A DNA stretch of 48,787 nt from NCBI RefSeq assembly GCF_900185725.1, contig NZ_FYAU01000011.1, positions 1 through 48,787 of the forward strand, given 5' to 3'. Source of the stretch: Stappia sp. TSB10P1A (lineage in GTDB: Bacteria > Pseudomonadota > Alphaproteobacteria > Rhizobiales > Stappiaceae). The position numbers and the translations under genes were made by a program. Positions 29,810 to 29,975 of the stretch are shown one piece after another. The notes under the pieces were generated by a model. That model saw nothing but the letters and a program-made list of their open reading frames with translations, ran no database searches and had not been told where the DNA came from. Each line of letters starts with the position of its first letter. The first letter of the stretch is position 1.

Positions 29810-29885
29810 CTAGTCATCCGAATCTGAAGTTCGTCACAGTTCATGGCATGCTCCGTACGAACTTCAGTTTCAAAAGGATGACTAG
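29810..29885. repeat. Palindromic element A (CTAG-bounded double-stem)
   Basis: 76 bases. Outer stem CTAGTCATCC / GGATGACTAG (29810-29819, 29876-29885) and inner stem CTGAAGTTCGT / ACGAACTTCAG (29824-29834, 29857-29867) surround a 22-base loop. Left arm is 25 bases, right arm 29, the right having 4 extra bases between stems. It is markedly AT-richer than its surroundings and is a homologue, in reverse orientation, of element B 13 bases away. Confidence 0.85.
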
Positions 29886-29898
29886 CAAGTTTATGTTT

Positions 29899-29975
29899 CT
29901 AGTGTGGCTTTCGAATTTGAAATACGCTCTGGGTGTGCTGTCAAAATGAGGCGTATTTCAAATTCACCACACTAG
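29899..29975. repeat. Palindromic element B (CTAG-bounded double-stem, mirror of A)
   Basis: 77 bases. Outer stem CTAGTGTGG / CCACACTAG (29899-29907, 29967-29975) and inner stem AATTTGAAATACGC / GCGTATTTCAAATT (29914-29927, 29951-29964) surround a 23-base loop. Here the left arm is the 29-base one and the right arm 25, the mirror of element A. Long arms of A and B agree at 19 of 29 positions and short arms at 16 of 25, while each element keeps its own stems paired. Confidence 0.85.

Follow-up and report, generated by a model that had tools for sequence, protein, structure and literature searches.

Rhizobium-specific intergenic mosaic elements (RIME) are intergenic palindromic repeats of rhizobia. 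According to a 2007 review (PMC2229807), the CIR repeats of Caulobacter and Brucella consist of a pair of long inverted repeats and a connecting linker, with TA termini and a GANTC site at a terminal loop. They are approximately 103–110 bp in length and contain multiple stop codons in all six frames. The same review lists the target duplication of CIR as "?", and their mobility is left unexplained. Bru-RS appears to be the Brucella form of CIR. Among insertion sequences, TA duplication is reported for the IS630 family, with a preference for CTAG named in a title cited there (PMC2170065), and IS711 is reported to duplicate TA within YTAR (PMC2266754).

The locus described here lies in the window, defined as the whole 48,787-nucleotide stretch of DNA that was analysed. 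Two hairpins, A and B, and a 13-base linker form one gene-free insertion of 166 bp at positions 29810–29975. It shares with CIR and Bru-RS the two long inverted repeats with a linker and the 5'-TA at the termini (62 of 113 copies begin and end with CTAG, and the others are altered at one end or both). It differs from them in length, and in that its single GANTC, at position 29820, is placed within a stem arm, whereas that of CIR is exposed in the terminal loop. The six frames of the element contain 4, 3, 1 and 4, 7, 2 stops, so that one frame has a single stop. Empty sites and a target are documented for the present element, where the review gives "?" for duplication in CIR. A second, 111-bp element in the same genome is CIR-like, with two hairpins, a loop GANTC, CTAG ends and 4-nucleotide linker-side asymmetries.

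The original prediction knew of no named element with this layout; the published description of CIR supplies one. Compared with CIR and Bru-RS by description, the 166-bp element is best regarded as a new variant of that layout and not as a member. The open literature that was searched contained no description of this repeat family.

Structure of the element upstream of mgsA

The element is flanked by a DUF1194 gene (PF06707, E 4e-77) and by mgsA (NF003559, E 1.5e-52). Hairpin A is 76 bases in length (29810–29885), with a left arm of 25 nucleotides (10 + 15), a right arm of 29 nucleotides (15, a 4-nucleotide AAAA bulge, and 10) and a loop of 22 nucleotides. Hairpin B is 77 bases in length (29899–29975) and is mirrored, with arms of 29 then 25 nucleotides and a 23-nucleotide loop. 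The two are separated by 13 bases (29886–29898). On re-reading of the sequence, the positions, sizes and arms first given for both palindromes were exact, and B is the inverted relative of A that it was taken to be, as B, once reverse-complemented, aligns with A. The features, all unstranded, are as follows.

29810–29975: whole inserted element, CTAG to CTAG; single-CTAG empty orthologous site in genome G005.
29811–29812: left copy of the probably duplicated TA, proposed from family empty sites and the end tally.
29973–29974: right copy of the probably duplicated TA, proposed on the same grounds.
29810–29819: A outer stem, left arm; pairs with 29876–29885; two-sided changes in 6 of 10 pairs in 15 copies.
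29820–29834: A inner stem, left arm, with GAATC at 29820; pairs with 29857–29871; two-sided changes in 9 of 15 pairs.
29835–29856: A loop, from the sequence; column conservation below that of the arms.
29857–29871: A inner stem, right arm; complementarity and 15-copy covariation.
29872–29875: AAAA, the 4-nucleotide bulge of A, on the arm facing the linker; 93 of 107 copies have a net asymmetry of −4.
29876–29885: A outer stem, right arm, ending in the inner CTAG; complementarity and covariation; the inner CTAG of two other copies has been entered by other elements.
29886–29898: conserved 13-nucleotide linker CAAGTTTATGTTT; with at most two mismatches allowed, 29 of 87 genomes of Stappiaceae match its pattern, as do 6 of the 384 others in the class sample.
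29899–29908: B outer stem, left arm; covariation; the C at 29908 opposes A here and is T in the family consensus.
29909–29912: TTTC, the 4-nucleotide bulge of B, on the arm facing the linker; 100 of 107 copies have a net asymmetry of +4.
29913–29927: B inner stem, left arm; full complementarity to 29951–29965 and covariation.
29928–29950: B loop, from the sequence.
29951–29965: B inner stem, right arm; complementarity and covariation.
29966–29975: B outer stem, right arm, ending in CTAG; complementarity and covariation.

The folding energies of both hairpins, on both strands, are far below those of shuffled sequences (z −6.6 to −8.9; 0 of 200 shuffles as good). The element is also richer in A+T than its host, as predicted, with a G+C content of 42% against 67.5% for the window. 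Rfam gave no family at gathering score in the window. At a relaxed threshold, hairpin B matched mir-7131 (27.4 bits, E 0.001, cut-off 74) and CLRN1-AS1 (E 0.18), both eukaryotic RNAs and judged to be chance matches.

Copies, target and empty sites

The window's own genome (G000) contains approximately 18 copies, some of them partial. A search with the full element gave 20 matches, which reduce to 17 distinct places since one copy is split by a nested insert and some are partial, and one further arm pair is present on contig C17. The DNA of hairpin A alone identified 15 same-sense places in this genome at E ≤ 3.1e-8, the window copy counted. At E ≤ 0.001 the full element matched 10 of 41 genomes, own included. 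Five of these have 15–20 matches each (G000 20, G002 19, G019 16, G024 16, G005 15), G010 and G012 have 8, and three others have 3–4. The remaining 31 genomes, seven of the same genus among them, gave no match at this threshold.

A search with the linker, allowing two mismatches, matched 29 of 87 Stappiaceae genomes, again with the own genome included. There were 36 matches in G077, most with the same linker letters, and 19 in G100, against 6 matches of the reversed linker over all 87 genomes. In a class-wide sample the linker matched 7 of 385 genomes, the own genome and six others in four further families, and the control gave one match. Exact-pattern matches (23 stretches) include Hongsoonwoonella, Stappia sediminis, Roseibium, a strain labelled "Rhodobacterales", and metagenome genomes labelled Nitratireductor and Sphingobium. 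Thirteen plasmid records also matched. In nine of them (Roseibium, Labrenzia) the match extends over 80% or more of the query; the other four (two Sphingopyxis, one Sphingobium, one Aminobacter) are partial matches. The same design with different stem letters is found in several alphaproteobacterial groups. An absence of further copies and of conserved pairing had been named as the outcome that would reduce the locus to a local duplication; dispersed copies and conserved pairing were found instead.

The length is 162–168 bp in 115 of 122 full hits, a set that contains at least one antisense artefact (L186_2295m); the table of pairs that includes this artefact does not enter into the main claim. 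The copies in G077 include a burst of near-identical sequences that looks active. At locus L186, two copies are arranged in tandem and have one CTAG in common. A virus-like contig (L349, IMGVR_UViG_3300033180_000047) with genes for the large and small terminase subunits contains two copies, the second of which is cut by the contig end and begins in a CTAG that holds the terminase stop codon. The phages of INPHARED gave no match to the element. In the metagenome genome labelled Nitratireductor, the element is at most about 200 bases from the end of the stored stretch on several contigs (L074, L079, L081, L083, L086, L088 and L089), perhaps because high copy number broke the assembly.

Shorter forms are also present. 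In G100, nine places (L286–L294) have a single hairpin of approximately 72 bp, several of which are composed of an A-type left arm and a B-type right arm, as if the short arm repeats had recombined. Two sphingomonad plasmids carry solo A-like or B-like hairpins with CTAG or near-CTAG feet. These single hairpins are either deletion products or smaller mobile units.

Empty orthologous sites, proposed as a check of the prediction, were identified at the window locus and at three of eight other loci. At the mgsA locus of G005 the flanks are joined at one CTAG, where the window reads CTAG, 158 bases, CTAG. For the other loci, the joined flanks of eight own-genome copies were used as queries, and five gave no junction-spanning match. 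The site of copy C36 is empty in G001, G002 and G005. That of copy C30:116198 is empty in G005 and G008 and occupied in G002 and G012. At copy C28:369186, the empty site of G005, G008 and G012 is CTAT; G000 and G002 are occupied there and have CTAG...CTAT. This is the pattern expected if TA is duplicated and the element proper runs from G to C; an element that carried its own CTAG into a CTAT target, left on the right, would fit too.

The target of the element is CTAG. This tetranucleotide is rare in the window: a Markov model predicts approximately 33 occurrences and there are 9, of which 4 are inside the element; the element therefore brings CTAG along. Insertion is suggested to duplicate the TA of the target. 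Since CTAG is a palindrome, most copies read alike under TA and CTAG duplication. The end tally comprises 113 readable copies, 45 of 158 hits having been dropped as duplicates or for unreadable ends. The outermost bases vary at 19 of 226 places and the first and last element bases at 4 of 226 (Fisher p 0.002, with copies that are not all independent). Odd outer bases beside an intact TA occur at either end of the element, in 6 copies on the left and 5 on the right. Some of these are related or secondary: the CTAT copies L027 and L150 represent one insertion, L053 has CTAT where its orthologues L147 and L151 have CTAG, and the TTAG of L059 is the entry point of a later insertion sequence. Once orthologues, L059 and L053 are removed, odd outer bases are left in approximately four insertion groups on the left side and three on the right. 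Because these independent groups are few, and CTAT is seen at a single locus, TA duplication is kept here at the level of a suggestion.

Worth noting is that, among the altered end tetranucleotides of the 113 copies, CCAG is the commonest form at the left end and CTGG at the right end, the same change when read outward. A preference for stop codons as targets was also considered. Of 145 ends, 35 have an open frame of 150 codons or more in register with the TAG. The other frames give 20 and 17, and the excess is weak.

The element is itself a site of insertion. In L123 (contig C30 of G000, copy 128766–129046), the 111-bp two-hairpin element is inserted at the inner CTAG of hairpin A. It has CTAG ends, GANTC in a loop and 4-nucleotide linker-side asymmetries, as noted above, and has 4 full-length matches in the own genome. 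In L124 (G019:C13:51444-51875), a 257-bp element with the ends GGTCTGGACC occupies the same inner CTAG of another copy. In L059 and L268 (G002), an 827-bp insertion sequence with the ends AGGCCTGTGGGGATTCA is present in the left CTAG of a copy. These 827 bases are common to three places, and the same transposase match was found at five. A published parallel to insertion into the element is the reported preference of IS711 for Bru-RS repeats (PMC2266754).

Stem covariation and the bulges

Covariation was examined in an alignment of 15 hand-picked copies from several families (A3), aligned without regard to structure. The rows are not independent events, as three are from family f33, four from f144 and two from G100. 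The predicted joint change of both arms holds in this alignment: 28 of 50 pairs are changed on both sides, with a shuffle mean of 15.9 and 0 of 500 shuffles as high. In total, 94.9% of cells are paired, compared with 23–41% in slid controls. One of five covariation measures, the number of further pair types, is not above shuffles (41 versus 40.1; 212 of 500). The competing pairing of A-left with B-right and A-right with B-left reaches 74.6% and 11 double-changed pairs, and the end pairing of A-left with B-right alone reaches 70% of cells, against 94–96% for the hairpins. Because the competing pairing is weaker, the hairpins themselves are conserved beyond what the similarity of A and B would give.

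A bulge of 3–4 nucleotides is present on the linker-side arm of both hairpins in 14 of the 15 copies. The B hairpin of G042 reads −8, and the Aminobacter copy has a split A bulge. The larger set from which the net asymmetries listed above were counted comprises 107 copies, 6 of the 113 having been skipped.

Several single copies, all in G077 and other genomes of its genus, have arms that have been corrected to match. In L201, B has no bulge and is matched to the other arm. In L213, A has acquired TTTT opposite AAAA. The A bulge is lost in L218 and L298, and in L188 the B bulge is lost and the loop inverted. The sole G-T pair in the arm stem of the burst copies has become Watson-Crick in 3 of 18 G077 copies, from either side, and L207 (G100) has a private two-sided change. 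Private changes in paired positions were counted without L186_2295m, four old G077 copies and one G100 copy. Those that break or weaken a pair number 15 in G077 and 16 in G100, and those that make or keep a Watson-Crick pair number 3 and 1.

These observations bear on how the paired changes arise, for which selection on a hairpin or hairpin-templated repair had been offered as alternatives. Both apply, and only the choice between them falls away: repair is seen in the arm correction and loop inversion of single copies, and the bulges that are kept are read as selection. That template switching alone keeps the pairing, with no selection, is a reading that concerns covariation and not mobility. 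Arm homogenization and spacer inversion are what template switching is reported to yield (PMC8604942), and the homogenized arms and inverted loop in single copies, together with the G-T pairs turned Watson-Crick from either side, are of this kind. Template switching would, however, erase the bulges, yet of 107 copies, 93 keep the linker-side bulge in A and 100 keep that in B, and private changes break or weaken pairs more often than they make or keep them. Template switching alone is therefore distinctly improbable as the whole account. Because bulges survive although arm correction erases them, and pair-breaking private changes outnumber pair-making ones, selection among propagating copies is inferred in addition.

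Mobilization of the family

No mobilizing enzyme was identified among the sequences searched. A Y1 (HUH) transposase was found in 0 of 29 carrier genomes and in 12 of 58 non-carriers (E ≤ 1e-5; p 0.007). The DDE_3 domain of IS630 was found in both groups, in 8 of the 29 carriers and 25 of the 58 non-carriers (p 0.24). The heavy carriers G000, G002, G005, G019, G024, G077 and G100 all lack it. DDE_Tnp_1 (PF01609) was present in 10 of 13 carriers examined and 4 of 5 non-carriers. The window genome lacks it, as do carriers G066 and G094. No arm pair at the spacing of an insertion sequence was seen around a transposase in G077 or the single-contig G100 with two mismatches allowed, and arm patterns with three mismatches gave no autonomous parent in the own genome. 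A scan of 62 transposase loci gave no matching ends, the best two-end score being 30 of 46. Between two G100 copies that are 2.3 kb apart, no transposase frame was recognizable by eye and Pfam gave no family for three translated stretches. The same was true by eye of two arm places 2.8 kb apart on own-genome contig C35, the left one a 3-mismatch match.

The dispersed copies, the empty sites and the CTAG target support the proposal of a non-autonomous mobile palindrome family. We consider it likely, from sequence comparison, that the element is mobile but non-autonomous, one of the alphaproteobacterial two-hairpin repeats with the CIR/Bru-RS layout, and moved in trans by a putative transposase; this confidence in mobility comes from the empty sites and the dispersal. 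A paired operator or a structured leader RNA regulating mgsA had also been suggested. The element is 54 bases upstream of the mgsA start and folds strongly, as such a role would lead one to expect, but the mgsA locus of 13 other genomes of the genus has no element (E ≤ 1e-10), copies elsewhere adjoin other genes (e.g., thioesterase/SDR on a Roseibium plasmid, and terminase), and the Rfam search at gathering score also speaks against it. As the role of the family, regulation of mgsA is extremely improbable and the suggestion is not supported; in this strain the element may still affect mgsA secondarily.

Two other modes of mobility were weighed against movement by a transposase acting in trans on the two-hairpin element. 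In a REP/BIME-like mode, a Y1 HUH transposase (RAYT) would read the folded single strand and paste it beside CTAG. The bulged hairpins, the foot tetranucleotide, the inverted dimers with a conserved spacer and the solo units resemble REP dimers as described in PMC3733652, but the superfamilies named there are tagged GTAG and CGTC, whereas the present element has CTAG at both feet and neither tag. With odd outer bases at both ends that fit TA duplication better, and no Y1 gene in the 29 carriers, this mode is very unlikely. The element could also be an ordinary MITE, derived from an insertion sequence of the IS630/Tc1 or IS5/IS427 type; its terminal repeats would be CTAGTNNNNNGAATYTGAA and the hairpins would be incidental. 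This overlaps the explanation preferred here and differs from it solely in what is recognized. The CTAG target and the suggested TA duplication would be shared with such MITEs, given the reports on IS630 and IS711 cited above, and the single-hairpin derivatives in G100 keep the outer arms. The element differs from them in having a long hairpin at each end and no matching parent seen: neither G077 nor G100 yielded an autonomous copy with these ends, the scan of the 62 loci was as described, and the DDE_3 transposase expected of an IS630/Tc1 parent is confined to 8 of the 29 carriers, none of them among the seven heavy ones. The A-left/B-right end pairing, at 70% of cells, is also conserved less than the hairpins. 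An ordinary MITE is thus somewhat unlikely.

Under the preferred explanation, of a two-hairpin element moved in trans, a putative transposase of the TA-duplicating type would recognize the element ends, possibly as folded or mirrored arms. From the suggested TA duplication and the CTAG preference, our best guess is a trans-acting enzyme of an IS630-like or IS711-like (YTAR) type, perhaps lost by now. The TA of the target would be duplicated on insertion, leaving G...C as the element proper, and the rarity of CTAG would tend to spare genes. The hairpin design may persist since copies that lose hairpins would stop spreading, while template switching would supply paired changes. A further proposal, which we hold tentatively and as rather unlikely, is that the mirrored hairpins, linker-side bulges and linker are the recognition signal of a structure-reading mobilizer, belonging neither to HUH nor to the DDE families tested, and common to the two-hairpin repeats of alphaproteobacteria.

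The covariation seen here calls for caution in proposing RNA function from covariation alone, as template switching can partly supply it in stems while the bulge is apparently selected. The element adds a new branch to a class of bacterial repeats that is poorly understood. A structure-reading mobilizer, if true, would explain the movement of CIR, Bru-RS and the present family. With its empty sites, its target and an active-looking burst, the family makes the question of CIR target and mobility testable.
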